Under the pieces are notes generated by a model. The model did not search any database and was not told where the DNA came from. It saw nothing but the letters and a program-made list of their open reading frames with translations. Shown piece by piece: positions 2,046 through 40,754 of a stretch of DNA of 45,098 bases. Origin of the DNA: an uncultured Planctomycetota bacterium (GTDB taxonomy: Bacteria; Planctomycetota; Brocadiia; CAIUPP01); contig CAIUPP010000055.1 of NCBI GenBank assembly GCA_903901045.1, positions 1 through 45,098 of the forward strand, in the 5' to 3' direction. Position numbers and translations under genes: made by a program. The first letter of the stretch is position 1, and the number at the start of each line of letters is the position of its first letter.

Positions 2046-4208
2046 TCATTCCTTCCGGTCGGTCAACGCCACTGCCTTGCGGTATTCCGGGATTTCGTAC
2101 TCCAGCACGGTTTTCACCTGGGCGATCTTCCAGCGCAGGTGTGCGGCGTCGGTCAGGTACTCCATGCTCGGCTCGAACCCCAGCCGCGAGTCGCGCTCGA
2201 CGAGCGGAATGGCCCTTTCCGCGTTGGCAATTTCCAGGAGGGCGATCTCCGCCATGGCGTCGAGGCAGCGGCTCTGCGCCGCCGGGGCCGGGTCGAGGAT
2301 CAGTTGCTGGTTCAGCTTCCACCACTGTTTGACATGGGTGGTGGTTTCGATGAAGCCCAGCATGAACCGGCCCAGGTTGAGCAGCCGCTCGCCTGTGGCG
2401 CGCTTGGATTCGGGAGTCACGGCGAGCGCCTGCTCCAGCGAGGCGATTCCCTGTCGCCACAGTTCCGCCATTCTCTGAAGAGTCCGCACCTCGACGTCCG
2501 AGCGGCTCGCGCCGGGCGACTGGGACGGGCTCTCGAAGGGACGATAGAGCGTCATGATGATCTGCGCGCCGAAATGCGCGTGCCAGGCCGAGGGCGGTTT
2601 GATCTCTTTGGCGCCGAAGGTGCGCGAAAGGTTCGGGTGGAAGATCAGCGGGTAAGAGGGGCCGATGCGGAACGGGCCGTATTGATCTTCGTTGGTGGGG
2701 ATATAGTGAGTCATCGCCTCGCTCCATCGCTCCCAGGCGGCGCGGACGAAGGGCAGCGCCGGCTCGCCGTAGTCGCGCCGGATGATCGCCTCGGCCACGT
2801 CGGCCGCTGGGGGGCTGGGAGTCCAGTACGCCCATTTCGCCAGCTCGGCGATGAACGACGGCCACCAGCCGTAATGGTGCGATTCCATCAGTCCGCAGAG
2901 TCCCCACTTCTCGCGGGCCTCTTTCAGGGCGGCATGACGCCGGGTCCACTGGAACGGCGCCGGCTCGTAGGGGGCCGTCCCGAAGTCCCAGGTCATGCCC
3001 GCGGTGTTGCTCATCGTGTAGAGCCGGATGCCGCGTTTGCGGGCGGCCTCGGCCTCGCTGCGGAAGTAAGCGCCCGGCCCGATGGAGGAGAGCGTGTAGT
3101 CCACGCAGACGTGCGTCACTCCCTCGCGCCGGGTCTGGTCGAACATTTCAAAGGTGACCAGGAGCGACACGTCGGCGGGGATGGAGTTGATCAGTCGCAG
3201 CCGTTCCGCCTCCGGCGCCCAGCCCCAATTATAGGTCCAGAGGACGATGTCCGCCTGCGGCGCATGCTTGCGCACGACTTTCTGGATCATGCGCAGCCAC
3301 TGCGGGTAATCCTCGCACGGCCACCAGCCCGGGCTCGGCTGGGTGGGGGGAAGTTCGTATGGCGCATTCCAGGGGCGTCCGGTGGTGCGGGGATCCCTGC
3401 TCGGGAACTCCACCGACTCCCCGACCATGACCACTCCCTTTGCGCGCGGGCACGCCTTGAAGAGCGCGCCGTAGGTGCTGTCGTAATACGCCTCGGCGTC
3501 CGCGTCGTCCGGGTGCTTGGCGCTCTTGAGGTAGCTGTAGAAGTAGACGTCGATGCCGTGCGCCTCGGCCCGGTCCACGAGGTCGTTGAAGTCGCAATAG
3601 CCCTGCGTGGTGCGGTCCACCCCTTTCGCAAACAGGAGGATCGCGTCCATGCCGGCGTGGGCGATGGCGTTGAGATGGCTGTCGGGGAACTGGTCCAGCC
3701 CCCAGCCGGAGTGGACCATCCGCGGGGAGAAGAGCGGCGCGCGGACAAGGTCCTGGCGGCTGAGGATCGGCGCCTCACGCAGGTTCATAATCTCTTCGAG
3801 GTAATGACTTCCCTGCCCCGCGCCGCGGTCATCGCACCCGCAGAGGAGGACGCCGCCCGCGCGGCAGACGAGCCGGTAGCTCTGCGGAACGGAGAGCCCC
3901 TTGCCGATCTCCGGCAGTTCACGCTTCGTGGCCAGAACGATGGCATGCGAATTCTCGCGAAGCGATGCGGCGAGGTCGGCCTGCGGAACCAGCGGCAGGG
4001 AGAGCTCCATGCTTTCGAGGAAGTAGTCCTGCAAGTCCTTCGCCACATTTCGCACGAGGAGCGCGGCGTCGCAGGGAATGACGATGCGCCAGGAGGAGTC
4101 GATGAGGATTTCGTTGTCCTGAGGGGACGCCGAGGCGTTGCGCCGATTGGGCGCGTGGACCTGGTCGATGCGTCGGCGGAAGGCGTAATTGGGTTCGGGT
4201 TTCAACAT
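2046..4208 (-). CDS. Glycoside-hydrolase-like protein with GH67/GH20-type N-terminal domain
   Basis: Last gene of the minus-strand operon, about 720 residues. I chose the ATG at 4208 (MLKPEPNYAF) because GAGAGG lies about 10 bases upstream. It overlaps the stop of the M20 gene by 7 bases, so the two are probably coupled; a longer in-frame extension would run far into that gene. There is no signal peptide, so it should be cytoplasmic. Residues about 30-150 (DAALLVRNVAKDLQDYF, HAIVLATKRELPEIGKG) resemble the non-catalytic domain that precedes the barrel in GH20 and GH67 enzymes. A barrel-like region follows, with SGWGLDQFPDSHLNAIAHAG, a DVYFYSYLK strand, a GESVEFPSRDPR segment whose acidic residues are plausible catalytic groups, and WTYNWGWAP. 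The C-terminal 150 residues look helical. A function in hydrolysing an oligosaccharide or uronide is likely from fold and neighbours, but I cannot assign a GH family or name the catalytic pair. Confidence 0.72.
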   Translation of the reverse strand: MLKPEPNYAFRRRIDQVHAPNRRNASASPQDNEILIDSSWRIVIPCDAALLVRNVAKDLQDYFLESMELSLPLVPQADLAASLRENSHAIVLATKRELPEIGKGLSVPQSYRLVCRAGGVLLCGCDDRGAGQGSHYLEEIMNLREAPILSRQDLVRAPLFSPRMVHSGWGLDQFPDSHLNAIAHAGMDAILLFAKGVDRTTQGYCDFNDLVDRAEAHGIDVYFYSYLKSAKHPDDADAEAYYDSTYGALFKACPRAKGVVMVGESVEFPSRDPRTTGRPWNAPYELPPTQPSPGWWPCEDYPQWLRMIQKVVRKHAPQADIVLWTYNWGWAPEAERLRLINSIPADVSLLVTFEMFDQTRREGVTHVCVDYTLSSIGPGAYFRSEAEAARKRGIRLYTMSNTAGMTWDFGTAPYEPAPFQWTRRHAALKEAREKWGLCGLMESHHYGWWPSFIAELAKWAYWTPSPPAADVAEAIIRRDYGEPALPFVRAAWERWSEAMTHYIPTNEDQYGPFRIGPSYPLIFHPNLSRTFGAKEIKPPSAWHAHFGAQIIMTLYRPFESPSQSPGASRSDVEVRTLQRMAELWRQGIASLEQALAVTPESKRATGERLLNLGRFMLGFIETTTHVKQWWKLNQQLILDPAPAAQSRCLDAMAEIALLEIANAERAIPLVERDSRLGFEPSMEYLTDAAHLRWKIAQVKTVLEYEIPEYRKAVALTDRKE

Positions 4209-5377
4209 GGCAGGCATCCTCTCAAATCGCTTGACATGACCGTCCGGTAGAATGCCACGGCCCGGTGAAGCTCCCGGACCTCGCAGAACTCCTCCGGGCC
4301 GTGCGCAACGCGAATGCTCCCCGGGCCCCACAGTGCCGTGGGAATTCCGGCGGCATTCATGCGGTACGCGTCGGAGCCGAAGGCGACCTGCCGGGGTTGC
4401 GTCTCTTCCCCCAGGGCGCGCGCGGCCTCCTGGAGGAGCCGCATGCCGGGGTGCTCCGCCGGGAGCAGCGCCGCTTCCTCAGCGTCCTTCAACGGGGAAC
4501 TCTCGAAGGGAAATTCGACCCCATGCCGCCGGAGATACGCCGCCAGGGCGTCGCGAATGCCCGCCGGAGTCGTGCCGCGCACAAGCCGGGCGTCGATCTC
4601 GATCTCGCAATGGTCTGGGACGATGTTGACTGCGGTTCCCCCGCGGATGGCCCCCACGGAGAGCGTGTCATGGCCGAAGAATTCATCCCGGCCGCGGCGC
4701 GCCAACTCCTCGTGAAACTGCCGGATCAGCAGGAGAATCTGCCCCATCTTGTAGATCGCGTTGTCGCCGCGCTCCGGCTCGGAACTGTGGCAGCGGACGC
4801 CGGAGGTGCGGATGTCCCACCGGGCAACGCCCTTGTATCCGTTGACCAAAGCGCAGGAGGTCGGCTCGCAGACCACGCCCAGGTCGGCGCTTCGAGAGGG
4901 CTCCTGGGAGACCAGCGCGGCCGCGCCCCGCCAACTGTATTCCTCGTCGGCCACTGCGAAGAGGAGAATATTGCCGGCGGCTTCCCGTGGGTTCTGCGAA
5001 ACGTGCGCCATGGCGCTCAGGAGCGCCGCGAGCGCGCCCTTGTCATCGCACGCCCCGCGCCCGTAGATCCGTCCGTCCCGCTCGGCGGGGCGCAGGAGAT
5101 TTGTGTCTTCGCCGACGTCCACGGTATCCGTATGGGCATGAAAGAGGATCGTCTTGTGAGAGGCGCTCTTGTGAAATAGGATGCCGACGTTCTCGCGCCC
5201 CTCCAAGCCTGTCTTCTGGATGACCGTGTCCAGCCGGTGCGCGCGCGCAAAGGAAAGGACATAGTCGTTCACGCGCCCTTCCCCGCAGAGTTCGGCGGGC
5301 GGCTGCCCGCGCCCCATGGGGTTGATGCTTGGAAGCGCGATCAGTTCCTTGCACAGGTCGACGACGTCATGGCTCAT
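4202..5377 (-). CDS. M20-family metallo-amidase/peptidase (ArgE/DapE type)
   Basis: A 391-residue two-zinc hydrolase. The start at 5377 (MSHDVVDLCKEL) forms an ATGA overlap with the stop of the cyclase gene; the longer in-frame extension lies inside that gene and was not used. The M20 set is complete: HAHTDTVD (metal-ligand H82, D84), GRGACDDKGA (bridging D111), ADEEYSW (general-base E145, ligand E146) and CEPTSC (E171). A lid/dimerisation region follows, then HGPEEF near the end supplies the last ligand. Family members cleave N-acyl amino acids, dipeptides or related amides in the cytoplasm. Next to a cyclase-family hydrolase, an amidohydrolase and two glycosidase-like genes, it probably removes an acyl or aminoacyl group from a glycan-derived amine. 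ArgE or DapE themselves are unlikely because no biosynthetic arginine or lysine genes are nearby. The family is certain; the substrate is unknown. Confidence 0.92.
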   Translation of the reverse strand: MSHDVVDLCKELIALPSINPMGRGQPPAELCGEGRVNDYVLSFARAHRLDTVIQKTGLEGRENVGILFHKSASHKTILFHAHTDTVDVGEDTNLLRPAERDGRIYGRGACDDKGALAALLSAMAHVSQNPREAAGNILLFAVADEEYSWRGAAALVSQEPSRSADLGVVCEPTSCALVNGYKGVARWDIRTSGVRCHSSEPERGDNAIYKMGQILLLIRQFHEELARRGRDEFFGHDTLSVGAIRGGTAVNIVPDHCEIEIDARLVRGTTPAGIRDALAAYLRRHGVEFPFESSPLKDAEEAALLPAEHPGMRLLQEAARALGEETQPRQVAFGSDAYRMNAAGIPTALWGPGSIRVAHGPEEFCEVRELHRAVAFYRTVMSSDLRGCLPC

Positions 5378-6045
5378 TCGGCTAGTCCCGGAATGCCCTC
5401 GATGGCGACGGCGCGCACGCAACAGGAGTCGAGCCCCTTGATCGGCATCGGCTGGTAGATGAGAAAGAAGACGCCGCTCTTCAATTGATCCAAGTTCTGC
5501 AAGACTTCCAGGAACATGATGTCCTTGGGCATCACGGCTTCATGCACGTCGCAGGCGTCCTTGACACTATGCTCGATGGCCACGCCATCCCCGAAGCCGA
5601 TGCATTTTACTCTTTTCTGCACGAACCATTCACCTGACTCCCGGCACAGATAGGGGCGGCGGTCGTCGGGACGGTTGCTGAACGGCTCGCAATGGTACGG
5701 GCTGGTCAGCAGCAGGATGTCCCCGGCTTTGACGCGGCCCTTGTCCGCCCGGTCGAGCATCGCCGCGGTGACGCGGGCCGTCGGCCCGCACTCCAGCTTC
5801 AGCAGGACCGCGCGCCCCATGAAGGCCGTCACCGGCAGGTCCACAATATCCTTCCAGCCGTCGGCGTAATGCAACGGCGTCTCCACGTGCGTGCCGAGAT
5901 GCGACTCCACCGTGGCCTCGGAATGGTAGTCCTTGGTGGACTCCTGATAGAAACGTTTGATGCGGCAGGTGCGGGTCGAGGTGGCCGGGTCCACCATCTT
6001 GCTGAGGTCCACAACGCGGTAGCCGCCAATTCGTTCAGCGCTCAT
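5374..6045 (-). CDS. Cyclase-family metal-dependent hydrolase (kynurenine-formamidase fold)
   Basis: A 223-residue protein of the Cyclase family (PF04199). The start at 6045 (MSAERIGGYRVVDLS) follows the amidohydrolase stop by one base, and AGGAAAGGA lies inside the end of that gene. The family metal signature is HLGTHVETPLHY at residues 49-60, close to the usual HxGTHxDxPxH but with Glu55 where Asp is typical. The C-terminal region (FGDGVAIEHSV, HEAVMPKDIMFLEVLQNLDQL, FLIYQPMPIKGLDSCCVRAVAI) matches the family pattern for the rest of the active site. Members hydrolyse formyl-kynurenine, isatin or other amides and lactams. No tryptophan-degradation genes surround it, so kynurenine formamidase is unlikely; an amide or lactone step in the operon's pathway is more probable. 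Its stop overlaps the next start (ATGA). Confidence 0.9.
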   Translation of the reverse strand: MSAERIGGYRVVDLSKMVDPATSTRTCRIKRFYQESTKDYHSEATVESHLGTHVETPLHYADGWKDIVDLPVTAFMGRAVLLKLECGPTARVTAAMLDRADKGRVKAGDILLLTSPYHCEPFSNRPDDRRPYLCRESGEWFVQKRVKCIGFGDGVAIEHSVKDACDVHEAVMPKDIMFLEVLQNLDQLKSGVFFLIYQPMPIKGLDSCCVRAVAIEGIPGLAE

Positions 6046-6046
6046 T

Positions 6047-6886
6047 TCACATCCTTTCCTTGATGATCTGTTCCGCATTCCGCCGGCAGACACGTTCCAA
6101 CTCAGCCGAAGTGAAACAGGAGAAGCCCTCTTCGATGAGGTGTAGGGCCTGGGCGAAGCTGTTGTGTTCGAGCACCGGCGGGAAATCGGACCCCCAGAGG
6201 AGCCGCCCCGCGCCGAAGCGCTCTTTCAAACCGCGCACGGCGCCGGCCAGGCCGGTCTGCGGGTAACGCCAGCCCTCCCGGACGAAGGCATAGAATCCTG
6301 AGAGCTTGACGTACACCTTCTCATGCCGGGCAAGCGTCTCCATGGCGCGGTTGTATGCGCGCAAGGAGCGGGGGGTGGTCACGGGCGGGCGGGCCATGTG
6401 GCTGAGCAGCACGATGCAGCGGGGGAAATCCGCCAGGACGTTGCTCAGCGTCCGGCAATGCCGCCAGCTTGCGTTCAGGTTCAGGGGGATGCGCCGCGAC
6501 TCGACCAACTCCCAGAACTTCCGCATCTCCGGAGAAGCCAGCCACGGCTCGGCGGACGCGCAATCCAGATAACAGCTCAAACCAAAGTGTCCGCGCTCCA
6601 GCAGAGCGCGGGCGCGCGCGGCGAAACCCTTCGGAGCCGGCGGAACATAGCCGAAGGAGTATATCCAGGGGCGCGATCCGCTGAGTTGCTCCACGAATCG
6701 GTTGTTCCGCGGGCAGTGCCCCCCTTCGTACCCAATGACGAAAGCGCCGGTGATGTGGAACGCCTTCCGGTACTCCTCGTACAGGTGCAATTCTCCCGGC
6801 GGCCCGCTCCGGATGTGCGAGTTCTGAAACAAGTCGCCGTAGGGACGCTCGAAGAGATGGATATGAGAGTCGAACACCGCTTTCAT
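6047..6886 (-). CDS. Amidohydrolase-2 family TIM-barrel metal-dependent hydrolase
   Basis: A 279-residue protein of the amidohydrolase_2 family (PF04909). The start at 6886 (MKAVFDSHIHLFE) overlaps the oxidoreductase stop by ATGA. Metal ligands visible are H8 and H10 (DSHIHLF), a mid-protein LLSHMARPP histidine, and the LLWGSDFPP aspartate near the C-terminus. KVYVKLSGFYAF is the conserved strand typical of this group. Known members hydrolyse lactones or amides or decarboxylate aromatic acids; uronate- and fucose-type lactonases are among them. There is no export signal, so it acts in the cytoplasm. In this operon a sugar-lactone or amide hydrolysis step following the neighbouring Gfo/Idh/MocA dehydrogenase is the most attractive guess, because dehydrogenation of a sugar at C1 yields a lactone. 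The family is well supported; the reaction is inferred. Confidence 0.88.
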   Translation of the reverse strand: MKAVFDSHIHLFERPYGDLFQNSHIRSGPPGELHLYEEYRKAFHITGAFVIGYEGGHCPRNNRFVEQLSGSRPWIYSFGYVPPAPKGFAARARALLERGHFGLSCYLDCASAEPWLASPEMRKFWELVESRRIPLNLNASWRHCRTLSNVLADFPRCIVLLSHMARPPVTTPRSLRAYNRAMETLARHEKVYVKLSGFYAFVREGWRYPQTGLAGAVRGLKERFGAGRLLWGSDFPPVLEHNSFAQALHLIEEGFSCFTSAELERVCRRNAEQIIKERM

Positions 6887-7869
6887 GGAACGGCCTCGCA
6901 ACTCTCATCCAGAAGAATCGCCGTCCTCAGCGCGGCGAGCGCCTCCTGCGCCGTGACGATGGGCGCTTCGCTATTCCCCATGACGCGCTGAAGGAAGCAC
7001 TCGATCTCGGCGCGCAGGGGGCTCTGAATGAGGAGCAGGGGGTCCGCGGCGCCGGCCAGTTCCGTGAACCGGTGAGTCGAATCGTCGATGGCCGTGTAAC
7101 TTCTCGATGGCAGCGCAATTTCAATCTCGCCGCGCGTTCCGATGATTTTCATCCGGGCGTCCAGACCGGCCGGGGCGGCGTCGCGGCCCAGCCAGGAGGA
7201 AGCGAACGAACAGATAGTTCCACACGCCAGCCGCGCGACGGCGAGGCAACTATCCGCTTCGGCCAGTTGCTGGGCGCGCCGTTTGTATCCATGCGCGGAA
7301 ACCACCGGACTGCCGGTGAACCAGAGCGCGAGGTCGATATCGTGGATCGCCGTCTCGCGCATCGGGTTGAGTTTGCGCCCCGGCGCGAGCGTGGAATGAT
7401 GGTTGTTGCGCCACGCCTGGATCATGGCGATGTCGCCCAGGCGGCCGGAGGCAATGGCCCGCCAGGCCTGGAAATACTCCGGCATGAAGCGGCAGATGTG
7501 GCCCACGGCCAGGATGCCTTTCGCTCCTGCAGCGGCCTCCGCCATGGCTTCAGCGTCCTCGGTCGTGTCGGCGATCGGTTTCTCGACAAGAACGTGCTTG
7601 CCGCGCTCCAGGGCGGGGACAACCACCTGCCTGTGATCTTTGCCGAGGGTGGTGACGCTGACGACGTCCACATCCTCCGCCGCCGCGAACTCCGCGTAGT
7701 CCGTGCTGATCCCGGGCACGCCGTACCTGGCGGCCAGCTCACGCGCGCGCGTTTCCGAGCGCGAGCAGATTCTCGTGACCTTCACGCTCGGAATCTGCGA
7801 GAAAACTCGGAGGTGAAGCTCGCCGAACTCTCCCAGGCCGGCTATGCCCACCCGAACCTCATTCCGCAC
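6883..7869 (-). CDS. Gfo/Idh/MocA-family NAD(P)-dependent oxidoreductase
   Basis: A 328-residue dehydrogenase that starts with GTG at 7869 (GAGGAGG six to eight bases upstream) and overlaps the aminotransferase stop by 11 bases. The N-terminal Rossmann fold has GIAGLGEFGELHLR (GxGxxG at residues 11-16). EKPIADT around residues 96-102 supplies the conserved Lys-Pro pair that contacts cofactor and substrate. AIHDIDLALWF in the middle carries the His/Asp pair of the second domain, where the family binds sugars or inositols. Members oxidise or reduce a hydroxyl or carbonyl of sugars, amino sugars or inositols. Linked to a class V aminotransferase and an amidohydrolase, it could form a keto-sugar for transamination, or a lactone for the amidohydrolase. 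The stop overlaps the next start by ATGA. The family is secure; the substrate is unknown. Confidence 0.94.
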   Translation of the reverse strand: MRNEVRVGIAGLGEFGELHLRVFSQIPSVKVTRICSRSETRARELAARYGVPGISTDYAEFAAAEDVDVVSVTTLGKDHRQVVVPALERGKHVLVEKPIADTTEDAEAMAEAAAGAKGILAVGHICRFMPEYFQAWRAIASGRLGDIAMIQAWRNNHHSTLAPGRKLNPMRETAIHDIDLALWFTGSPVVSAHGYKRRAQQLAEADSCLAVARLACGTICSFASSWLGRDAAPAGLDARMKIIGTRGEIEIALPSRSYTAIDDSTHRFTELAGAADPLLLIQSPLRAEIECFLQRVMGNSEAPIVTAQEALAALRTAILLDESCEAVP

Positions 7870-9025
7870 GGAACACCTCCTCGAACTTTCGCACTGCGCG
7901 GCCCGGGGCGACTTTCATGCCTTGCAGGGCGAGGCAGCGTTCCAGCGCGGCCATGGTCGGCGCCTGGAACTCCACCGACGCGGTCAGTCCCATGTGGCTG
8001 ATGCGCACAATGGATTCGTCCCCGCCGACGCCGCCCGCCAGGAGAATCTGATGATCGGCGGCCATGCGCTTGCGGAGTTCCATTCCGTCGACCCCTTTCG
8101 GCATCTTCAATGCCGTCAGCGTCCGAGAGGCGCATCCGTCCGGGACGAATGGTTTGATCCCGACCGCCCGCACGGCGCTGCGCACCGCCCGAGCCGCGCG
8201 CGCGTGACGCGCGAACCGCGCTTTCAGCCCCTCCGCCAGAATGCCGTCCAGCGCCGCATCCAGCGCCATGTACAGGCTCACCGGCGCCGTGTTCGGACCC
8301 TGCGGGTGCCACTTCGCCCACTCCTGGCGGTACCGGCGCAGCGTCAGGAGGTTGAGATACCAGCCGAAGATGGGCGTTTTCCGCGCCTGCATGAACCGCC
8401 ATGCCCGCTCGCTGACGCTGATGAAGCTCAGCCCCGCCGGCGACTCCAGGCACTTCTGGCTTCCGCTGACGCAAAAATCTATCCCCAGTTCATCCACCGG
8501 CAGGTCAACCCCGCCCAGGGCGCTGACGCTATCGACCAGCGTGAGGACTTTTCGCTTCTGAGCGACTTTCATGATGTCGCGAACCGGATTTTCCACCCCG
8601 GTTGACGTCTCGTTGTGCACCAGCGCCATGAAGCGGATTCCCGGATGCTTGCGAAGCGCGGCTTCGACGTCCGCGGGACGGATCGGCTTGCCCAGCTCCG
8701 CCCGCACCAGCACCGCGCGTCCGCCCGCGCCTGCGACCATCTCCGCGAACCGGTTCCCGAAGAATCCGTTGTGGCATACCAGCACTTCGTCTCCCGGCTC
8801 CGTCCCCGCATTGATGCCCGCCTCCATCGCCGCGCTCGACGTGGCCGCCAGCGTGTAGATGTCGTTTCGGGTCTGAAACACCTTCTGCAACTTCGACTCG
8901 ATGGAGAAATAGAGCCGAACGAACGCCTCGCCATAATGTGGCTCCACGGGCAGCGCCATTCGCTGCAGCACCGCATCCGCCACCTCCGTGGGACCTGGAA
9001 TCATCAGCGTCTTGTGCCTGTGCAT
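7859..9025 (-). CDS. Class V PLP aminotransferase (alanine-glyoxylate/serine-pyruvate type)
   Basis: A 388-residue PLP enzyme. The chosen start at 9025 (MHRHKTLMIPGPTEV) has GGGAGA upstream and matches the family N-terminus; the longer frame adds an Arg-rich tail that looks spurious. The family pattern is clear: PGPTEV at the start, the ATSSAAMEAG loop near the cofactor phosphate, HNETSTG, the cofactor-ring aspartate in TLVDSVSALGG (D165), and the Schiff-base lysine in SGSQKCLESPAGLS (K191). Relatives include alanine-glyoxylate aminotransferase, phosphonopyruvate aminotransferase and ureidoglycine-glyoxylate aminotransferase. Here it follows an MFS transporter gene by 59 bases and overlaps a Gfo/Idh/MocA gene, so it probably removes or adds an amino group on a small keto acid or sugar derivative produced by the pathway. 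The substrate cannot be told from sequence alone. Confidence 0.92.
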   Translation of the reverse strand: MHRHKTLMIPGPTEVADAVLQRMALPVEPHYGEAFVRLYFSIESKLQKVFQTRNDIYTLAATSSAAMEAGINAGTEPGDEVLVCHNGFFGNRFAEMVAGAGGRAVLVRAELGKPIRPADVEAALRKHPGIRFMALVHNETSTGVENPVRDIMKVAQKRKVLTLVDSVSALGGVDLPVDELGIDFCVSGSQKCLESPAGLSFISVSERAWRFMQARKTPIFGWYLNLLTLRRYRQEWAKWHPQGPNTAPVSLYMALDAALDGILAEGLKARFARHARAARAVRSAVRAVGIKPFVPDGCASRTLTALKMPKGVDGMELRKRMAADHQILLAGGVGGDESIVRISHMGLTASVEFQAPTMAALERCLALQGMKVAPGRAVRKFEEVFRAE

Positions 9026-9084
9026 GGGTTCTCCCTGAATTAAAGGTCGTGATGACAGACCGCCCGTGCGCCTTCGACTCGTCC

Positions 9085-11199
9085 TCATTCCGTCGCCGCC
9101 GCGCTCGCCTTTCTATGGAGGAGGGACTTGATGGCATCCATCATGCCCGCACTCGGCAGGGGAGCGACGGCCGTCGCGTCCTCCACGTAAAGCGTGGTGG
9201 ACCGCCCGCGCTCCATCCGCCAGATCGCCAGGACGGCGGCGGTCAGCATCAGATTGGTGATGACGTTGCCCACTCCGAAAACGATGCACTCCCATTCCAT
9301 GCCCAGCTTGACCGTCACGACGACCTGGAAGATCCAGACGCAGAGGGTCAGCAGGTATTGGACGGATACGACCATCAGCATCCCGTGGTGCGGTATCCCG
9401 TTATGGAGCGGCTCATTCCGGAGGCTGCGCGCCATGTCGCGACGGATTCCGCGTTCGAGGAGTTTCCATCCCACCCACACCGCCAGCGAATAGGGCAGCA
9501 CCAGCAGGGTGTACCACCGCGCCGCAATCAGCGCCCCGGACTGATGCATCCACCAGATCAGCACGGGCAGGCAGAGCACCGACGTCCACATGATGGCGTC
9601 GAAGAGCCGCAGCGACAGGCTCAACCAGCGGGACTGGGGGCCGACCGTGGGAACGATGTCCATGTCCTCGGTCTTCCTGGGACTCCAAGGCGCCGGAGGC
9701 TGATAGCCCTGGTCCGCGCCGAGCCGGTGCCAGTACACATAGGCCCAGATGCCGAACGCGGCGATGGCGACCGTGAATACGCCCGACCAGAGGAAGTTGA
9801 AGCGGTAAGCGAAATCGGACGTATGCCCGGAATGGCGGCACAACCAGGCGACGCCGTCGACAAACAGCCCCGCGGCGACACCGGCTACAAGCGATAAGAG
9901 GGAGCGAACCATCGCCTGGGCCGCGCAGAACTGGCCGAAGCGCGATTTCGGGAATGTCCTCATCAGAAGCGGGTACCCGCAGACGCCGGAAAACGCCGTG
10001 AAGAAGGCCCCGGTCAGCGCCGTGCCCAGAGACAGCCAGAAGTAGTACCTTCCCGGCAGGGTGACGAAGACCCATACCCAGCCTGAAAACGCCGCAAAGG
10101 CCACGAAGACCTGCGCGTAAACCATCACGCGCATGGGATGCCAGCGGTCAACGAATATGGAGGCCAGATAGGTCGCGGCCATGGCGGCAACCAGGCCGAC
10201 GGCGGCGAGCTTTCCGATGTCGTCCAGCGTCAGCCCCATCTCCATGCTGAAGAAGACGGCGAATATGCCGATGCCCGCCCCGAGCGCCCAGATCGAGTTC
10301 CATGCAAAGAAGATCCAGTACCACTTGTGGCAGAAGGATTCCTTGAGGAACGTCTTCACTCCGCGAAGTCCTCGCGCCGCCTTTTCATCCTCCCCCTCCA
10401 CGGGCGGGTACTTGCCTTCCTTGACCATCACGCACATGATCGCGAAGCCGACGAAATAGATCACGGCGCCGCCGACCAGTATCTCCCGCATGTGCGTTCC
10501 GGCGTACTGGAAGATGAAGTACTGGTACAGCGCGTAGGCCAGGTTGCCGACGGTCCGGAACGACCCGATGAACCGCGACAAGTGCTGCGTCGGCACCACG
10601 TCGTTGAGCAGGTAGTTGAAGACCGACCCGACGAACATATTGAAGAATTGGAACATCACCATGAAAATCCCGATGAGCGCAATCGTCACCGTGACCGGCG
10701 CGACATTCCGCAGGGAAGGCATGTGCGCCTGCAGCCAGACGCTGATTTGCTCGCTGCACCCGAGCAGGACGAGGCTCAGGCAAAGGAAGGGCAGCGTCCA
10801 GACGATGAAAGGAATCCGCCGGCCCCATCGCCCCCGGTACCGATCGCTTTTGAAACTGACGGCGGGGCAGATCGTCATATTCAGAATGTTCGGGACGGTG
10901 GTGATGATCAGGCCCGTCAGCCAGTTGGGAGAGGCCAGCGCCTTCAGCTTGAGGGGCAGCACCGTCGGCGCGACTACTTCCATGAGCGTGTAACAGAAGT
11001 CCCCCCACAGCAGCCATGCGAAGATTGCCAGGAGCCCGGCCTTCGTGTACGTGAGGGTGCCGCAGTGGTAAGTCTTGACCTCGGGCGCAAGCGGACCGTT
11101 GGAAAGCTCCGCGTCCGCGGAATGCCCCCGGAGAAGCCGCACCACCGGACCGATGACCGGCAGGCGGGACCACCTCGAGTTCGGCGCGGCCTCCTTCAT
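9085..11199 (-). CDS. MFS sugar transporter, GPH/SLC45-like, with extended C-terminus
   Basis: A 704-residue inner-membrane protein; its start (ATG 11199) overlaps the GH20 stop by ATGA. A soluble N-terminal segment of about 50 residues is followed by at least twelve hydrophobic spans. The loop after the second span, SFKSDRYRGRWGRRIPFIVW, is the hallmark of the glycoside-pentoside-hexuronide and SLC45 sucrose-type carriers (DRxRxxxGRRxPF). That supports proton- or sodium-coupled uptake of a glycoside. It is about 200 residues longer than ordinary MFS permeases: after a hydrophilic linker (QPPAPWSPRKTEDMDIVP) there are further hydrophobic segments (MWTSVLCLPVLIWWM, YTLLVLPYSLAVWVGW, LLTLCVWIFQVVVTV). 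Sitting directly between a cytoplasmic GH20-like enzyme and catabolic genes, it is the likely importer for the operon's oligosaccharide. Confidence 0.9.
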   Translation of the reverse strand: MKEAAPNSRWSRLPVIGPVVRLLRGHSADAELSNGPLAPEVKTYHCGTLTYTKAGLLAIFAWLLWGDFCYTLMEVVAPTVLPLKLKALASPNWLTGLIITTVPNILNMTICPAVSFKSDRYRGRWGRRIPFIVWTLPFLCLSLVLLGCSEQISVWLQAHMPSLRNVAPVTVTIALIGIFMVMFQFFNMFVGSVFNYLLNDVVPTQHLSRFIGSFRTVGNLAYALYQYFIFQYAGTHMREILVGGAVIYFVGFAIMCVMVKEGKYPPVEGEDEKAARGLRGVKTFLKESFCHKWYWIFFAWNSIWALGAGIGIFAVFFSMEMGLTLDDIGKLAAVGLVAAMAATYLASIFVDRWHPMRVMVYAQVFVAFAAFSGWVWVFVTLPGRYYFWLSLGTALTGAFFTAFSGVCGYPLLMRTFPKSRFGQFCAAQAMVRSLLSLVAGVAAGLFVDGVAWLCRHSGHTSDFAYRFNFLWSGVFTVAIAAFGIWAYVYWHRLGADQGYQPPAPWSPRKTEDMDIVPTVGPQSRWLSLSLRLFDAIMWTSVLCLPVLIWWMHQSGALIAARWYTLLVLPYSLAVWVGWKLLERGIRRDMARSLRNEPLHNGIPHHGMLMVVSVQYLLTLCVWIFQVVVTVKLGMEWECIVFGVGNVITNLMLTAAVLAIWRMERGRSTTLYVEDATAVAPLPSAGMMDAIKSLLHRKASAAATE

Positions 11200-13187
11200 G
11201 TCGGCCTCCGGCTATGTACGGGAGCGGCCCATTCCGCGCCGGGCCTTATGCCTTCTTCGCCCTGTTCCGGCTCGAACCACGCCTCATCGGGCACATCGCG
11301 CGTCAACGGCATCTGCGCGGTCGCCTTGCGCGGCCCGAGCCAGAGAGTGCTCTCTTCCGTCGTCACCCATTCGCCCGCCGTCCGAGCCAGATGATACGCG
11401 TACTCTCTTCCGCGCCAGCGAACGCTCACCTTTTCTATCCCAACCTGTCCGTAATGCCGAACGGCGCAGTGGATTGCGCAGGGAAGTTCGTTTCGGCCCA
11501 GCGGGTGGGCCGAAGACTGCTTGAATGCCCGCTCCGGCCGCGCGCAGTCCCCCTCGAAACGGATGAGAATGTCCGATACGATCTGTTGTTCCCCATCGGG
11601 CCAGAGGAGGGCGCTCTCCATCACGGGCAACGCCGGGTACCGGCACTTCAGCGCGTACTCCAGGCGCGGCGTGACGAAGAGCGGGTGCTTCGCCGCGCTT
11701 CCGGTCTCCGCGGCCTCCACCCACGCGCGCAGTGTTCGGCATGTTCTCTCCGCCCACGCGAGGATGGGGCTGGGGTCATCCTCGAAGCGTACGCTGCCCC
11801 AGTGCGCCCGGTATTCTTCCGCGAAGGCCGCGACCATCTGCGCCAGGGCGTCGAAGGTGTCGCGAACCTCCAGCCGGTGTTCATCCCCTTCGCACAACCG
11901 CCGGTAGCAGCCCGGCAGCATGGCGCCCAGCTTCCACGTCGCCAGGAGCATCTGGTGGGACAAGCCGATGGCCCGCAGGTCATTCCGCGCGTCGGTGTCG
12001 GCTTGCGCCATGAGGCCGGGCAGGTCGGCCAGCATTTCGGAAAGCAATTCGTACTTGCGCCGGCACTCCGCTTCGCGCGCATCGCTCGCCAGGGCCTCCA
12101 GCGGGCGTCCGTGGAGGGACCTGTTCCCATGCCCCGTGAGATGGAACAGCCCCAGGCCGAGAATATCCTCCACCAGCCGCTCCGGAATGGCCGCGCCGGC
12201 GCTCTTCTGAAGAACCGCCTGGAGGTCGATCTCTATGGCGGTTCCGTTGCGTCGTTTGAGGCCGCGGCCGAACGCGCGGAACAGCAGGTCGGCATTGCTG
12301 TAGAAGCCGAAGCTGTTCTCCCAGTCCGTGTTGAGAATTCCGCCGAACCCGACTTCGCACCCGTAACGAACCCAGTCCCGCAGATTGCGCCACCGCTCGC
12401 GGACATCCGGAAACGGGTAATTCGGCCAGACCGAAGGGACGCCCCATACCTCGAACCCCGCCTCTCTCAGCCGCCGGGAGGAATCCAATTCCTCGAAGTT
12501 GAACGTCTCGACGCGCGGCATTCGCGAGAAGGGGTAGTAGAACCAATCGGCGACGACGATGTCCTTGTCCACCAGTTCGATGGCGCGCGGCAGGTAGTAG
12601 AACATGTCGCCCCACATCACCATCCGCCGGCCAAGTCGTTGAACAATGTCATGCAGCCGGTTGCAGTGGTCGGCAAACATCCCGGCGAGGTCGACCTCTT
12701 CCGCTTCGTGCGTGCGCCGGTGATACCGGCCCATGTCCGGGGATTCATCCAATCCGACGTGCAGGTATTGCCCGGGAATATGTTCGCACCAGTCCTCGTA
12801 GAGTTCCCGCAGGAGTTCAGAGGTCTCGGGAAAGGAGGGGCTCAGGCAGCCGTGGAGCCGATCCGTGCCTCGCCCCTCGTCATACTTCCGGTAGCCGGGT
12901 TTCGAGGTGATCCAGTCCGCATGTCCCAGGGAGGGGATGACCGGCATCAACTCCATCTTCTGTCGCGCGCAGAGATCCTGAACCTCCGCCATGAAATCCG
13001 GCGAATAGGCATGTTTGCGCCCCAGCGCCGGGTGGCGTGGATAAGCGTAGGCGTCCTCAAGGTTCAACGCGAACAGGTTGTACCCGCAGTCGGCCATTCC
13101 GGCAACGGCGCGGCGCATCACTTCCGGCCGTTCCATCCGCCGGGCGACGTCCATCATATAACCCATAATGCGGAGCGGCTCTGCCAT
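11196..13187 (-). CDS. GH20-like (beta-N-acetylhexosaminidase family) glycosidase
   Basis: First gene of the minus-strand operon, 663 residues, with GGTGAGG just upstream of the ATG at 13187. The N-terminal two thirds form a GH20-type TIM barrel: YNLFALNLEDAYAYPRHPALG, MPVIPSLGHADWI, and QYLHVGLDESPDMG, in which D147-E148 match the GH20 Asp-Glu pair of substrate-assisted catalysis (H-x-G-x-D-E). MVMWGDMFYY and GFGGILNTDWEN are later barrel strands. The usual N-terminal GH20b domain is absent, since the barrel starts at about residue 5. A C-terminal region of about 300 residues is partly helical. There is no signal peptide, so it would act in the cytoplasm on oligosaccharides brought in by the adjacent MFS carrier. 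GH20 enzymes release GlcNAc or GalNAc, which fits the downstream M20 and other amide hydrolases, but a different beta-hexosaminide cannot be excluded. Confidence 0.85.
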   Translation of the reverse strand: MAEPLRIMGYMMDVARRMERPEVMRRAVAGMADCGYNLFALNLEDAYAYPRHPALGRKHAYSPDFMAEVQDLCARQKMELMPVIPSLGHADWITSKPGYRKYDEGRGTDRLHGCLSPSFPETSELLRELYEDWCEHIPGQYLHVGLDESPDMGRYHRRTHEAEEVDLAGMFADHCNRLHDIVQRLGRRMVMWGDMFYYLPRAIELVDKDIVVADWFYYPFSRMPRVETFNFEELDSSRRLREAGFEVWGVPSVWPNYPFPDVRERWRNLRDWVRYGCEVGFGGILNTDWENSFGFYSNADLLFRAFGRGLKRRNGTAIEIDLQAVLQKSAGAAIPERLVEDILGLGLFHLTGHGNRSLHGRPLEALASDAREAECRRKYELLSEMLADLPGLMAQADTDARNDLRAIGLSHQMLLATWKLGAMLPGCYRRLCEGDEHRLEVRDTFDALAQMVAAFAEEYRAHWGSVRFEDDPSPILAWAERTCRTLRAWVEAAETGSAAKHPLFVTPRLEYALKCRYPALPVMESALLWPDGEQQIVSDILIRFEGDCARPERAFKQSSAHPLGRNELPCAIHCAVRHYGQVGIEKVSVRWRGREYAYHLARTAGEWVTTEESTLWLGPRKATAQMPLTRDVPDEAWFEPEQGEEGIRPGAEWAAPVHSRRPT

Positions 13188-13421: not shown

Positions 13422-13468
13422 CTTGACACGCTTACTGACACGAAGTATACTGTAAACGCGGCAGTAAG
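13422..13468. promoter_or_regulatory. Putative operator: repeated TACTG half-sites over the promoter
   Basis: CTTACTG (13431-13437) and its inverse CAGTAAG (13462-13468) flank the -10 region, and a third TACTG copy lies at 13448-13452, so the half-sites are spaced about 15 bases apart. The right arm continues as TCAAG, mirroring CTTGA just before the left arm with a 3-base offset. The placement over the promoter suggests autoregulation by the adjacent regulator. No binding evidence exists in the sequence itself. Confidence 0.55.
13423..13451 (+). promoter_or_regulatory. Near-consensus sigma-70 promoter of the GntR-LacI regulator gene
   Basis: TTGACA at 13423-13428 and TATACT at 13446-13451 are separated by exactly 17 bases. 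The predicted transcript starts near 13458, giving a leader of about 36 bases with GAGGAG (13482-13487) ahead of the ATG at 13494. Confidence 0.85.
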
Positions 13469-13493
13469 TCAAGTACGATTGTGAGGAGTTGAA

Positions 13494-14669
13494 ATGGACG
13501 TTATGCCGATGACCGGGCGACCTCGCGTGCGCCGGTCGAAGAACGATGCCTCGGTCGCATCGTTGATCGAAGAGTTGAAGCACGCGGTGGACGAGGGGAA
13601 GTATGCGGCCCATTCCCTGTTTCCTTCCGAACGCCAGTTGTGCGAGCAATACGGGGTGGTGCGCCGCGTGGCGCACCGAGCCATGGAGTGCCTCGAACAG
13701 GAAGGCATCGTCTATCGGCGCGCGCGGAGCGGCACGTTCGTGCGCGGGCCGGTCGGCGGGCCGGAACTTCAGAGTCGCTTGCGCACGGTGACGTTCGTTG
13801 AGGACCGTTGGCCGATGCCCGACAACCTTCGGTTCAACCTCAGAGAGTACCTGGCCGCCTATACCGCCACGTTCGACGGCACGGGCATCCAAATGCGCTT
13901 TGTGCCATCGCCGGGGGATGACCGGGGGTTCGAGCATTACTTCCTGGACACCGTCCCGCTCCAGGAGCAGGCGTGCATCCTTGTGAACGTGACCCCCTCC
14001 GCGTTCATGAAGTGGATGCAGGAGCACAGGGTCAGCTATGTCGTGCAGCATTACACCGAGTACCCGTGCGATGGTTTGCCCGAACATCACAGCGTCATTG
14101 TGAACAAGTTCCGGGGGGCCTTTGAAATGGTGCGCCACCTTCTGGACCTGGGCCATCGCCGCATCGGGTTCATGGGGCCGCTCGACTCGAATGACCTCAA
14201 CGGCGCCGTCTATCGCGGCTATTGCGCGGGCATGGAATGGGCGGGGCTGATGCCCGGGAGCGAAGACCTGGTGAACCTGGCCACGGACGATGTGGAAGCG
14301 ACCGTGGGACCGGCGATGAAGTTTCTGGATCGAAAGGACCGCCCGACGGCGCTCTTCCTTCAGACCGACGCCATGGCGCAGGGCGTCCTGACCGCGGCGC
14401 ACCGGCTTGGGATTCGCGTGCCCGAGGAGCTGAGCGTCGCCGGGTATGACGACTCGCCCGGCGCGGACGCCACGGATCCGCCGCTCACCACCGTCGCCTC
14501 ACCGCGGTATCGCCTCGCGCATACCGCAGCGGAAATGCTTCTGGCCATCGCCAAGGGTGGATTCCAGTCCTGGCAGCAGCGGGTTCTGGATTGCCGGCTA
14601 GTCGTGCGCAAGAGCACCGCCGCGCCCGGCGGTGCATCAACGGAACAGAGGCAGGGACCGCGCGCGTAG
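13494..14669 (+). CDS. GntR-HTH / LacI-type sugar-binding transcriptional regulator
   Basis: A 391-residue hybrid regulator of the AraR-like kind. Residues about 18-85 are a GntR winged helix (VASLIEELKHAVDEGKY, LFPSERQLCEQYGVVRR, RAMECLEQEGIVYRRARSGTFV). From about 100 to 370 the protein resembles the periplasmic-binding-protein-like sensor domain of LacI regulators (MVRHLLDLGHRRIGFMGP, TALFLQTDAMAQGVLTAAHRLG, VPEELSVAGYDDSPGA, PPLTTVASPRYRLAHTAAEML). Such proteins usually repress catabolic genes until a sugar binds. The start is fixed by GAGGAG and a consensus promoter. Its position, divergent from the GH20 operon and 34 bases ahead of a secreted glycosidase-like gene, suggests it controls both directions and itself. 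The ligand is unknown. Confidence 0.92.
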   Translation: MDVMPMTGRPRVRRSKNDASVASLIEELKHAVDEGKYAAHSLFPSERQLCEQYGVVRRVAHRAMECLEQEGIVYRRARSGTFVRGPVGGPELQSRLRTVTFVEDRWPMPDNLRFNLREYLAAYTATFDGTGIQMRFVPSPGDDRGFEHYFLDTVPLQEQACILVNVTPSAFMKWMQEHRVSYVVQHYTEYPCDGLPEHHSVIVNKFRGAFEMVRHLLDLGHRRIGFMGPLDSNDLNGAVYRGYCAGMEWAGLMPGSEDLVNLATDDVEATVGPAMKFLDRKDRPTALFLQTDAMAQGVLTAAHRLGIRVPEELSVAGYDDSPGADATDPPLTTVASPRYRLAHTAAEMLLAIAKGGFQSWQQRVLDCRLVVRKSTAAPGGASTEQRQGPRA

Positions 14670-17031: not shown

Positions 17032-17056
17032 ACCATGTTCAGGAGTGACTTGGGGT

Positions 17057-17108
17057 CGGTGGGGACACAATACTTTCCAAAGGAAAGTTTTGTGTCCCCA
17101 CCTCGACC
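17057..17108. repeat. Long hairpin repeat, copy 1 (REP/MITE-like)
   Basis: Arms 17058-17078 and 17082-17102 pair at 20 of 21 positions (one T-T mismatch) around an AAA loop. The left arm opens GGTGGGGACACAA and the right arm closes TTGTGTCCCCACC. Bases 17057-17108 are identical over 52 bp to 20128-20179. This copy lies just after the end of a GH42-like gene and before a prepilin-like gene. No transposase gene is in the window. Confidence 0.9.
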
Positions 17109-17238
17109 AACCGAGCAGAGTGACTTCAGTTCTCGGACGTCGATCGGTCCAAAGTCGCGTTCACTGGGAACCGGCGACCGGTCGATGTTTTACGGCGGGA
17201 GACGCAGAGGGCGGACCTTGATGAGGGAGGGTTTGGTT

Positions 17239-18708
17239 ATGAGAATGACTCGGCGCTGGCTGTCGGCGTTCACGTTGATCGAGCTGCTTGTCGTCATCGC
17301 GATCATTGCGATTCTGGCCGGAATGTTGCTGCCGGCGCTGGCAGCGGCCCGCGAAAAGGCGCGCCGCACCGCTTGCCTGAGCAATTTGAACCAGTTCAGC
17401 AAGGCGTTGGCCTCTTACAACGGCGACTACAACGGGTACTTCCCCTCCTCGCCGGCGTGGGGGCCTGTCGCAGCGAAGGGCGCGCTCTCCGGCGGCAACA
17501 ACAAGTATCCCGGCATCCCCCAGTTCGGCGCCTGCACGAACCAGAGCGCAACGTGGGCGACCGCGTACAGCGTCTCGGTCTACGCCCCCTCCGGCAATGG
17601 AACGGCGGGCGCCACCACAGGCGTCAGCACCAACGCCTGGCTGGAGTATGGCATCTATAGCGAGCCGCGACTCAAAGGCACGACACTGCCGGACAGCACC
17701 ACCGCGACCGGCCAGGTCTTCTCGAACTACCCGGCGCAGTCCTTCGGCGACAACGGGAACATGATCAAGGACTACCGGGTGATCTTCCTCGGCTGCAAAG
17801 GCAGCAGCACCAGTTACTATGGCAACGCTGTCGTGCACCAAGGGGACATCAATCTTGCCCCGCTCGGGATCGGAACCCTCGGGTCGGCGGGATATCTTGC
17901 GGATTTGAGCATCTATTTCTGCCCCTCGGCGGGCAACATGCCTGACGACTTTGCCACGAACCCTCTGACGAGCCTCCATGCGGATTCGGGCAGCACTTCC
18001 TATAATGGCGGCATGACCACCTTGGGCGAGGTGCGCCAATGGACCAACGGCGCTACGGACATCTACTCGGTCATGCACGCGGGCTACGTCGGAAACCCCA
18101 CCCCGAACACCGTGGGAGATGGCATCTACAACGGGTCCTACTATGATATTATGTCTGCTTATAATTACCGGCTGGTGCCCGAGTCCGCGTGCGTGTACCA
18201 GAATGAGGACGGCTTCAACCCCATCTGGGCGCGATTGAAGGGCGTCACGCCAAGCCGGATCGTGTTCAGCGGAGAGCCGATGTTCAAGACGGACAAGCAA
18301 CTTGGAAATCGAGCGATTGTGTGCGATACGTTCAGCAAGCTGGCCGGCACGTTCAAAGATACGACGACCACCCCCCTTCAGCCCGGCATGGGCAACTGGG
18401 CGCATCGCGACGGCTATAATGTGCTCTATGGCGACAGCCATGCCGCGTGGTACGGCGACCCGCAGCAGAAGATCATGTGGTGGGCGAATACGATGGGCAC
18501 AGGCGCAGGGTCGCGCCTGGCCTACATGGGTCTGTGGTGCGCAACGATTACTGACTGGGCGCAGTCCGCCAACGATGTCCCCAGCCCCGTGACTTCCGGC
18601 AACGGAACCTACGCGCCCGCCGCCGGCTACAGCAACAAGGGTTCGACTCTCATCTGGCACACGCTGGATGCGGCATCGGGCGTGGACGTTGGAGTGGACG
18701 GCTACTGA
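17239..18708 (+). CDS. Prepilin-type (type II secretion/type IV pilin-like) large surface protein 1
   Basis: About 489 residues. The ATG at 17239 is chosen because GGGAGG lies eight bases upstream; in-frame ATGs at 17221 and 17245 fit less well. After [10 protein letters not shown] comes [18 protein letters not shown], the class III prepilin leader and hydrophobic stalk with the conserved Glu5. The residue before the cleavage point is Ala instead of the usual Gly. Next is [15 protein letters not shown], the family's helical extension. The large exported domain is rich in Gly, Ser, Thr and Tyr. Near the C-terminus, [19 protein letters not shown] matches the H-x9-DG element of the Lentisphaerae/Planctomycetes expansion of these proteins, here with Ser after the Asp, and the end reads [13 protein letters not shown]. 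Members are thought to be cleaved by PilD-like peptidase and assembled at the surface, but their function is not established. A partner at 28430 shares all these elements. Confidence 0.92.
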
Positions 18709-18802: not shown

Positions 18803-20077
18803 ATGGAAATAGGCTGGTCGCAACGGGACATCACGCCTCTTCCCGGAGAAGAGCTCGGTGGGTACGGTTACTACATGAACCGCCGCGCGGACCGCACGCT
18901 CGATCCGCTCTTCTGCCGTGTTTGCGCCTTCCGCGAGAATGGGCGCGTCGCCGTCCTGGTCCAATTCGACTTGATCGGGTTGCAGGCGGACCACGTGGAG
19001 GAACTGCGCGCGCGGCTGGGCCGTGCGCATGGCCTCCCGGCGGAAGCGATCTTCTTTCACTGCACCCACACGCACACGGGTCCTGCAAGTCTTCGGTGGT
19101 TTGGTCCCGGCGAACTCACTCAGACCTGGCGGCAGATCGTCACGAAGCATGTTATGGACACCGTTGCGGATGTGTTGAAACACTGGGAGCCGGTGCAGCG
19201 CGCCTGTTACATCGATCATGAATTCCCGGGCATTGCGCAGAATCGCGACGAGCCGGGCGGGCCGGTCGACAACCATGTGCGCGGACTGCTGCTGGAAATG
19301 GGCCAGGCCGCGCCGATCCTCCTGGTCAATTACGGCTGCCACGCCGTCGCCCTGGGCGTGTGGCGGGTCTATTCCGCCGACTACCCCGGCGCGGTCGTCC
19401 GCTATCTTAACGCCCTCGGCTACCGCGCTCTCTTTCTGAACGCTCCCTGCGGAGACCTCGATCCCTGCGTGACCAAGTCCGCGGCGTTTGGAAAAGGGGG
19501 GGAGGAGGTGCTCGATTTCTACGGCCGGCGGATTGTGGAGGCCGTGGAGCGAGCGCTGAAGTCCAAGGAAGCGGTCCCGGTCGGTTCGATGCAATTTGCG
19601 TCGAAGCTCATTGACCTTGCCGTGCAGCCCCCGGCCCGGTCTGAGTGCGAAAGAACCATTGCCGAGTCGACGGCCCTCCTGGAAAAGGATGCAACCGACG
19701 GGATGGCCCTGTCGACGCTCAACGGAACGAAGAACTGGATCCAGATGCTTGACAGCGGCCGATGTGTCGCCCGGCAACCGATAGAGGTTCAGGTGCTTCA
19801 CCTCGGAGGGGTGACGCTGGCGGGAATTGGGGCGGAATTCTATTCCGAGCTGAGCGCCCTCATGCGCGCGAAAGCGGGAATTCAGCGGCTGCTCGTGGCC
19901 GGCACCTGCAATGCCGTGACCTGCTACATCGCCACGCGGCGATCTGTGGAGAACAGCCGCTATCCCGTTCGGGCGGCGCGTTTCTACGGCGTCTTCCCGC
20001 ATACGGCGGGCGCCGGCGAGCGTTTCGCCGAAGAAGCGGGGGCGTTCCTGGCGGACACCGCGGCGCGCCCTGGTTAG
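18803..20077 (+). CDS. Neutral/alkaline ceramidase N-terminal-domain protein
   Basis: A 424-residue protein with GAGGAAGAG ahead of the ATG at 18803 and no signal peptide. It matches the N-terminal amidase domain of neutral/alkaline ceramidases (PF04734). It opens GWSQRDITPLPGEELGGYG, has the zinc-binding FFHCTHTHTGP at residues 84-94, and then NYGCHAVALG near 175 as the next His ligand region; APCGDLDPCV follows. Ceramidases are usually 650 or more residues, with an additional C-terminal immunoglobulin-like domain that is absent here. Stand-alone domains of this kind are frequent in PVC-type bacteria beside sugar genes, and a general amide-hydrolysing role is more likely than ceramide cleavage. 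The gene lies between prepilin-like and DegT genes, with a hairpin repeat directly after it. The domain is secure; the substrate is unknown. Confidence 0.85.
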   Translation: MEIGWSQRDITPLPGEELGGYGYYMNRRADRTLDPLFCRVCAFRENGRVAVLVQFDLIGLQADHVEELRARLGRAHGLPAEAIFFHCTHTHTGPASLRWFGPGELTQTWRQIVTKHVMDTVADVLKHWEPVQRACYIDHEFPGIAQNRDEPGGPVDNHVRGLLLEMGQAAPILLVNYGCHAVALGVWRVYSADYPGAVVRYLNALGYRALFLNAPCGDLDPCVTKSAAFGKGGEEVLDFYGRRIVEAVERALKSKEAVPVGSMQFASKLIDLAVQPPARSECERTIAESTALLEKDATDGMALSTLNGTKNWIQMLDSGRCVARQPIEVQVLHLGGVTLAGIGAEFYSELSALMRAKAGIQRLLVAGTCNAVTCYIATRRSVENSRYPVRAARFYGVFPHTAGAGERFAEEAGAFLADTAARPG

Positions 20078-20127
20078 ACTCGATGCCGTTTTGCTCTGTT
20101 GAAACCATCCCGGTTGGCAGGCCGGGC

Positions 20128-20179
20128 CGGTGGGGACACAATACTTTCCAAAGGAAAGTTTTGTGTCCCCACCTCGACC
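20128..20179. repeat. Long hairpin repeat, copy 2 (REP/MITE-like)
   Basis: Identical over 52 bp to 17057-17108. Arms 20129-20149 and 20153-20173 pair at 20 of 21 positions. This copy lies 50 bases after the ceramidase-like stop and 26 bases before the start of the DegT gene, so it would form a strong stem in the leader of that transcript or act as a terminator for the gene before it. Confidence 0.9.
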
Positions 20180-20205
20180 CAAATAAATCAGAGAGGAGCA
20201 TTCAC

Positions 20206-28292: not shown

Positions 28293-28429
28293 GCCATGCC
28301 GGGTGAGTTCTGTGGAGGGCGCCGGAGTTTTGCGAACGACGAGGCTGTTGGACGGAGTGGCGGCATTTATCCATTGAGTTGAGTTTAGGCCGGACAACTG
28401 GAGCACGGTCTATTTGAGGAGGGTTGGCC

Positions 28430-40723: not shown

Positions 40724-40754
40724 ACGCACTCCGAAACGCATGGGAGACACAGGG

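Follow-up and report, generated by a model that had tools for sequence, protein, structure and literature searches.

An eight-gene planctomycete operon combining GH20-related proteins with three families of amide or lactone hydrolase, possibly for catabolism of an N-acylated amino-sugar glycoside

Results

A Compact Operon Facing a Divergent Regulator Gene

The window, by which we mean the whole 45,098-nt stretch of DNA that was analyzed, is contig C55 of an uncultured Planctomycetota genome of 4.77 Mb in 154 contigs that is 94% complete. An earlier reading of the DNA letters (the first-pass annotation) had described eight genes in close succession, and all eight open reading frames, here A to H, are present on the minus strand between 13187 and 2046 (Table 1). 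With starts supported by ribosome-binding sites, six of the seven junctions overlap or lie 1 nt apart, much as had been described: the overlap is 4 nt at A/B, D/E, and F/G, 11 nt at C/D, and 4 to 16 nt at G/H, varying with the choice of start, and E/F is a 1-nt gap. The carrier/aminotransferase (B/C) junction is probably a 59-nt gap, judging from the ATG at 9025, which is preceded by a Shine-Dalgarno-like AGGGAG; the open reading frame of C reaches upstream to 9088, and only its first ATG at that position would give a 4-nt overlap. The operon ends at 2046, as the gene that follows it (594-1820) is encoded on the other strand. GC and GC3 (0.80-0.86) are even along the operon and similar to those of the flanking genes, and thus give no sign of a recent insertion. 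No Rfam match was found within the window. Eight same-strand genes with overlaps at nearly every junction bear out the single catabolic operon of the first-pass annotation.

The divergent gene upstream encodes a protein with a LacI-type sensor domain, which supports a sugar-type regulator. The promoter-like site facing the operon has a matching site toward the regulator gene (13423-13451), and such sites are no more numerous in this region than in shuffled sequence, making them weak evidence.

Table 1. Genes and promoter-like site of the operon region, in window coordinates
Feature	Position	Strand	Evidence
Divergent regulator: GntR DNA-binding domain and LacI-type sensor	13494..14669	+	GntR E 3e-13, Peripla_BP_3 E 6e-35
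Promoter-like site TTGACT-17-TATACT facing operon	13444..13472	-	Weak; such sites no more numerous than in shuffled sequence
A: GH20-type glycosidase, 663 aa	11196..13187	-	Pfam Glyco_hydro_20 E 1.9e-10
B: MFS_2-type sugar carrier, 704 aa	9085..11199	-	Pfam MFS_2 above cutoff
C: class V aminotransferase, AGT/PucG/PPAT group	7859..9025	-	Aminotran_5 E 1e-22
D: Gfo/Idh/MocA oxidoreductase	6883..7869	-	Pfam GFO_IDH_MocA
E: Amidohydro_2 protein	6047..6886	-	Amidohydro_2 E 3e-30; HIH, SHM, GSD motifs
F: cyclase/kynurenine-formamidase-fold metal hydrolase	5374..6045	-	Cyclase E 8e-18
G: M20 ArgE/DapE-type deacylase	4202..5377	-	Peptidase_M20 E 8.5e-31, M20_dimer
H: orphan GH20-like glycosidase-like protein, 720 aa	2046..4208	-	Family alignment, profile comparison

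Other gene groups were seen along the window. At 39335-43768, an MttB-family methyltransferase gene overlaps that of a carbon-nitrogen hydrolase and is followed by a sodium-solute-symporter-like gene, a group for which quaternary amine or betaine use is possible. At 18803-22373, a DegT-family aminotransferase gene overlaps a sugar isomerase/epimerase-like gene and is adjoined by a ceramidase-like gene (by eye); a trio resembling it (L078:4332-8032) adjoins another carrier of the MFS family to which B belongs. Many prepilin-like proteins are encoded beside sugar-catabolic genes and GntR/LacI-type regulators, both in the window (17035-18708 and 28424-29704) and in stretches L068, L078, and L081.

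Glycosidase-Type Proteins

Pfam backs seven of the eight family assignments of the first-pass annotation and gives no match for the eighth, H. No obvious signal peptide was seen when the N termini of the operon enzymes were judged by eye, from which we infer that they are cytoplasmic. Protein A passes the curated cutoff of the GH20 catalytic domain (41.1 bits versus 22.3, residues 9-215), and its D147-E148 pair, in HVGLDES, aligns with the DE of 2EPK, 9FYL, and other GH20 chains; with this catalytic pair kept, a hexosaminidase-type activity is plausible for A. The barrel region and the catalytic Asp-Glu are common to A and the GH20 exo-hexosaminidases (2EPK; Streptococcus pneumoniae GH20C, 5A69), but A aligns with them over its first ~220-300 residues only and its C-terminal half is unlike theirs. 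Matches to A in the plasmid collection extend over only ~300 residues; the two best of these relatives come from amino-sugar clusters that also contain nagA and murQ/anmK or nagB.

Protein H had been labeled GH67/GH20-like. A distant relation to GH20 barrels holds: profile comparison of the H family with a GH20 set gave a probability of 82%, and one of 12 H-family members matches Glyco_hydro_20b (GH20 domain 2), not the catalytic model. The GH67 part of the label does not hold, as no such family appears among the Pfam or PDB matches of H, nor does ordinary hexosaminidase chemistry. E354 is invariant across the 12 aligned members. The strand equivalent to the one carrying the GH20 acid ends in Glu in 11 relatives of H and in Val in H itself, where one Glu lies two residues before that Val (E264, in VGES) and another lies one residue after it. 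In pairwise alignment, VGES pairs with VGER of a paralog on another contig (C63, below), and E264 is likely the counterpart of the family's other Glu. An Asp-Glu pair is absent from H in any register (the segment is VVMVGESVEF, against TASEN or TVGER in its relatives), and because this pair is missing, H appears unfit for GH20 substrate-assisted catalysis. A single-sequence structure prediction of H reached a pLDDT of 44, too poor for use.

Transaminating, Oxidizing, and Hydrolytic Enzymes

Catalytic motifs are recognizable in the six operon enzymes that can be aligned with known relatives; among them are the predicted active sites of the M20 deacylase, the cyclase-type hydrolase, and the aminotransferase. 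In C, the PLP Lys (SGSQKC) and an Arg (IVRISHMG) are both in their usual places, and the protein matches PDB 1VJO (E 7e-53); its best NCBIfam match, pyridoxamine-pyruvate transaminase, scored 229 bits, far below the 600-bit cutoff. The motifs of D are EKP and ETAIHDID, the counterpart of the latter in inositol dehydrogenase being DMSIHDID, so that Glu in D replaces its Asp. Weak similarity of E to L-fucono-1,5-lactonase and to 2-pyrone-4,6-dicarboxylate hydrolase (2FFI) was detected, and E is possibly a lactonase. F carries HLGTHVETPLHY (HxGTHxE) and, in alignment with 8HMO, 1R61, and 4CZ1, a later His and Glu that match those of metal-dependent relatives. All five M20 metal/catalytic motifs are present in G (alignment to 7RSF), which has the catalytic and dimerization domains and the metal ligands of ArgE/DapE-type M20 proteins; by model score it is ArgE-like, falling below the acetylornithine deacetylase equivalog TIGR01892 (AcOrn-deacetyl; 201 bits versus a cutoff of 298). 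None of the operon enzymes passed an NCBIfam equivalog cutoff.

A Paralogous Locus in the Same Genome

A paralogous locus lies on contig G000:C63 (L059:3118-16854 with L068:14592-15746), with a GntR-type regulator upstream. Its core consists of a GH20-like protein that keeps the H-x-G-x-D-E motif of A, an H paralog about 25-29% identical to H, and a carrier 70% identical to B, which has weaker paralogs on four other contigs. The helpers are two creatininase-family hydrolases, an octopine/nopaline-dehydrogenase-domain protein, a GH29 fucosidase, another Amidohydro_2 protein, and an acetyltransferase. Compared in gene content, the two loci suggest a modular system in which the glycosidases and carrier would form the core, and the amide hydrolases and amine/oxidation enzymes would be exchanged. 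The C63 locus supports a common theme, a glycoside bearing both amide and amine, and does not prove a single pathway.

Conservation of the Gene Set

The first-pass annotation had tied its proposal to conservation of the eight families as a unit, and in every collection searched, each a sample of public sequence and not exhaustive, this conservation fails: the whole set was not found in 391 other genomes of the phylum, in the 28 nearest relatives, on plasmids, or in a single patterned scan covering 84,980 species. Nothing was found in viral contigs. Searches of 392 phylum genomes for A (E<=1e-60) and H (E<=1e-30) detected each only in the window's own genome, both thresholds being strict and weaker relatives existing; relatives of H occur in 13 of the 392, the window's own counted (about 3%). 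Outside its own genome, relatives of H were never beside A, B, or C-G in the stretches fetched, and the plasmid collection held no match to H. The 28 nearest genomes yielded no relative of the B carrier at E<=1e-60. The scan of 84,980 species genomes for the aminotransferase returned a single 43% relative, located beside two-component genes and with no operon neighbors in common. None of the plasmid matches to the cyclase, Amidohydro_2, and M20 proteins reached 60% identity, and those rows that were compared by accession revealed no common cluster.

Phylum relatives of the aminotransferase and cyclase had no other operon partners nearby, save Gfo next to cyclase: elsewhere in the phylum, the Gfo and cyclase genes adjoin and are accompanied by a different carrier. 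A cluster that recurs there (L053:1517-7147 and L056:8732-14252) contains, by eye, genes for a LysR-like regulator, MFS, Gfo/Idh, a cyclase-family hydrolase, and an isopropylmalate/tartrate-dehydrogenase-like protein; L057 shares part of it, the Gfo-cyclase adjacency.

Described Clusters of Similar Logic

Taken literally, the statement of the first-pass annotation that no described pathway has this set is correct, but similar logic has already been described in the ong (PMC9537276) and alf-2 (PMC6960285) clusters, which the operon appears to resemble in combining a glycosidase, a carrier, an amide hydrolase, and a PLP enzyme. The ong cluster of Pseudoalteromonas prydzensis serves the use of oxidized chitin (GlcNAc1A) (PMC9537276, PMC12017989), and it has been proven experimentally that GlcNAc1A is deacetylated and deaminated ahead of phosphorylation (PMC9537276). 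Points of likeness are the eight genes and a dedicated regulator; the β-hexosaminidase of ong, its inner-membrane carrier, the amide hydrolase by which an amino-sugar acid is deacetylated, the PLP enzyme that removes the amine, and late phosphorylation may have counterparts in the operon. The ong cluster differs in that oligosaccharides are cut in the periplasm, in its deacetylase OngB, a D-aminoacylase-type barrel where G is M20, and in its PLP enzyme OngC, of fold type III where C is class V (Aminotran_5); it also has KdgK and RidA, its carriers are SSS and a TonB receptor, and no Gfo, cyclase, or Amidohydro_2 protein has been reported for it. The ong roles of hexosaminidase, amino-sugar-acid deacetylase, and deaminating PLP enzyme could here be filled by other families.

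The alf-2 cluster of Lactobacillus casei, for use of Fuc-alpha-1,6-GlcNAc-Asn (PMC6960285), has in common with the operon an MFS permease, a cytoplasmic glycosidase, a PLP enzyme, an M20 peptidase (PepV), an amide hydrolase, and a GntR regulator. It differs in having GH29 where the operon has GH20, an aspartate 4-decarboxylase as PLP enzyme, a glycosylasparaginase (AsnA2), and a ROK kinase, and in lacking Gfo, cyclase, and Amidohydro_2 proteins. No gene for an AsnA2-type glycosylasparaginase was found in the eight-gene operon.

Discussion

The best explanation of the locus, to which we give a probability of about 0.38, is a regulated cytosolic operon that breaks down a small glycoside containing an N-acylated amino sugar. 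Such a glycoside would be brought in by B and split inside the cell by A, possibly also by H. The freed N-acyl amino sugar would not be phosphorylated first and would be treated more as an amino acid than as a sugar, D oxidizing it to a lactone or keto form, E and/or F opening the product of D, G taking off the acyl group, and C removing the amine by transamination. Of the first-pass scheme, the catabolic operon and the role of A are retained here, along with M20, cyclase, and aminotransferase proteins that have recognizable active sites; conservation as a unit and H as a GH20 enzyme are not, and substrate and order of steps are conjecture.

Several observations count for this explanation: the overlaps at nearly every junction, as of one transcription unit; the Asp-Glu pair of A and the plasmid relatives of A in amino-sugar clusters; the M20, cyclase, and aminotransferase motifs and the LacI-type sensor; the C63 locus, which pairs the core with other amide hydrolases; and the ong precedent together with the Gfo/cyclase neighbors in other genomes of the phylum. 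Against it count the failure of every enzyme to pass an equivalog cutoff and a neighborhood that does not recur elsewhere. The operon also leaves the carbon end-product unaccounted for, as it encodes neither a kinase nor an aldolase or dehydratase. Sub-threshold NagA-like and NagB-like proteins are encoded in the genome, so an ordinary amino-sugar route may operate. 2-Amino-2-deoxy-D-gluconate has the D configuration at C2, whereas the AGT-group aminotransferases that have been characterized mostly show L specificity or use achiral amines. This C2 stereochemistry for an AGT-group aminotransferase and the missing downstream carbon enzymes are the strongest objections to the N-acyl amino-sugar reading.

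Its main rival, which we consider rather unlikely but which sequence alone cannot separate from it, is catabolism of glyco-amino acids or glycopeptide remnants, in which B would import a sugar attached to an amino acid or a short peptide, such as O-GlcNAc-Ser or an N-glycan stub, A and H would remove the sugar, the M20 protein would trim the peptide or acyl group, a serine/aspartate-type aminotransferase would use the amino acid, and D and E would oxidize and open the sugar. The logic of this kit matches that of L. casei alf-2 (PMC6960285), C is closest to alanine/serine/aspartate-glyoxylate-type enzymes, and a GH29 fucosidase is encoded in the C63 locus, but the operon is without the glycosylasparaginase, its M20 protein scores ArgE-like, and the cyclase-type hydrolase would have no obvious job.

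Less probable still is a mosaic: catabolic genes without relation to one another, collected behind one sugar-responsive promoter and forming no single linear pathway. Such an origin would suit an eight-gene set nowhere found as a unit in the collections searched and a C63 locus whose likeness to the operon is limited to glycosidases, carrier, and Amidohydro_2 family, but the overlaps at almost every boundary favor selection for joint expression, and what the two loci exchange are enzymes of similar chemistry, not random genes.

Improbable is a glycoside of a nitrogen-containing aglycone (a cyclic amide, lactam, or aromatic amide natural product), released by the glycosidases, opened and hydrolyzed by the cyclase, M20, and Amidohydro_2 proteins, and finished by Gfo and the aminotransferase: the three different amide/lactone hydrolase families of the operon, the cyclic-amide-type hydrolases of the C63 locus (the two creatininase-family proteins), and one closer cyclase relative (L052) whose surroundings include, by eye, a dihydropyrimidinase-like gene and a permease of nucleobase type would fit, but GH20 and the LacI-type sensor indicate a sugar, and oxygenases and ring-modifying enzymes are missing. 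Two further candidates were dropped: a purine/allantoin pathway (PucG-like aminotransferase and M20), as the M20 protein is ArgE-like and there is no allantoinase-type protein, and a tryptophan/kynurenine pathway, as C is no kynureninase and a dioxygenase is missing.

If the genes are a mosaic, this would be just another lineage-specific carbohydrate operon. It is conceivable, though doubtful, that three things hold together: an undescribed route for N-acylated amino-sugar conjugates, with transamination in place of NagB-type deamination; a new GH20-like family, represented by H, without the Asp-Glu pair; and a modular core with exchangeable amide-hydrolase modules. The operon would then join ong and alf-2 as a third non-phosphorylative means of using amino sugars or glyco-amino acids, the orphan GH20-like H family would have its first functional lead, and a carrier-plus-glycosidase core would be combinable with different amide hydrolases inside one genome.
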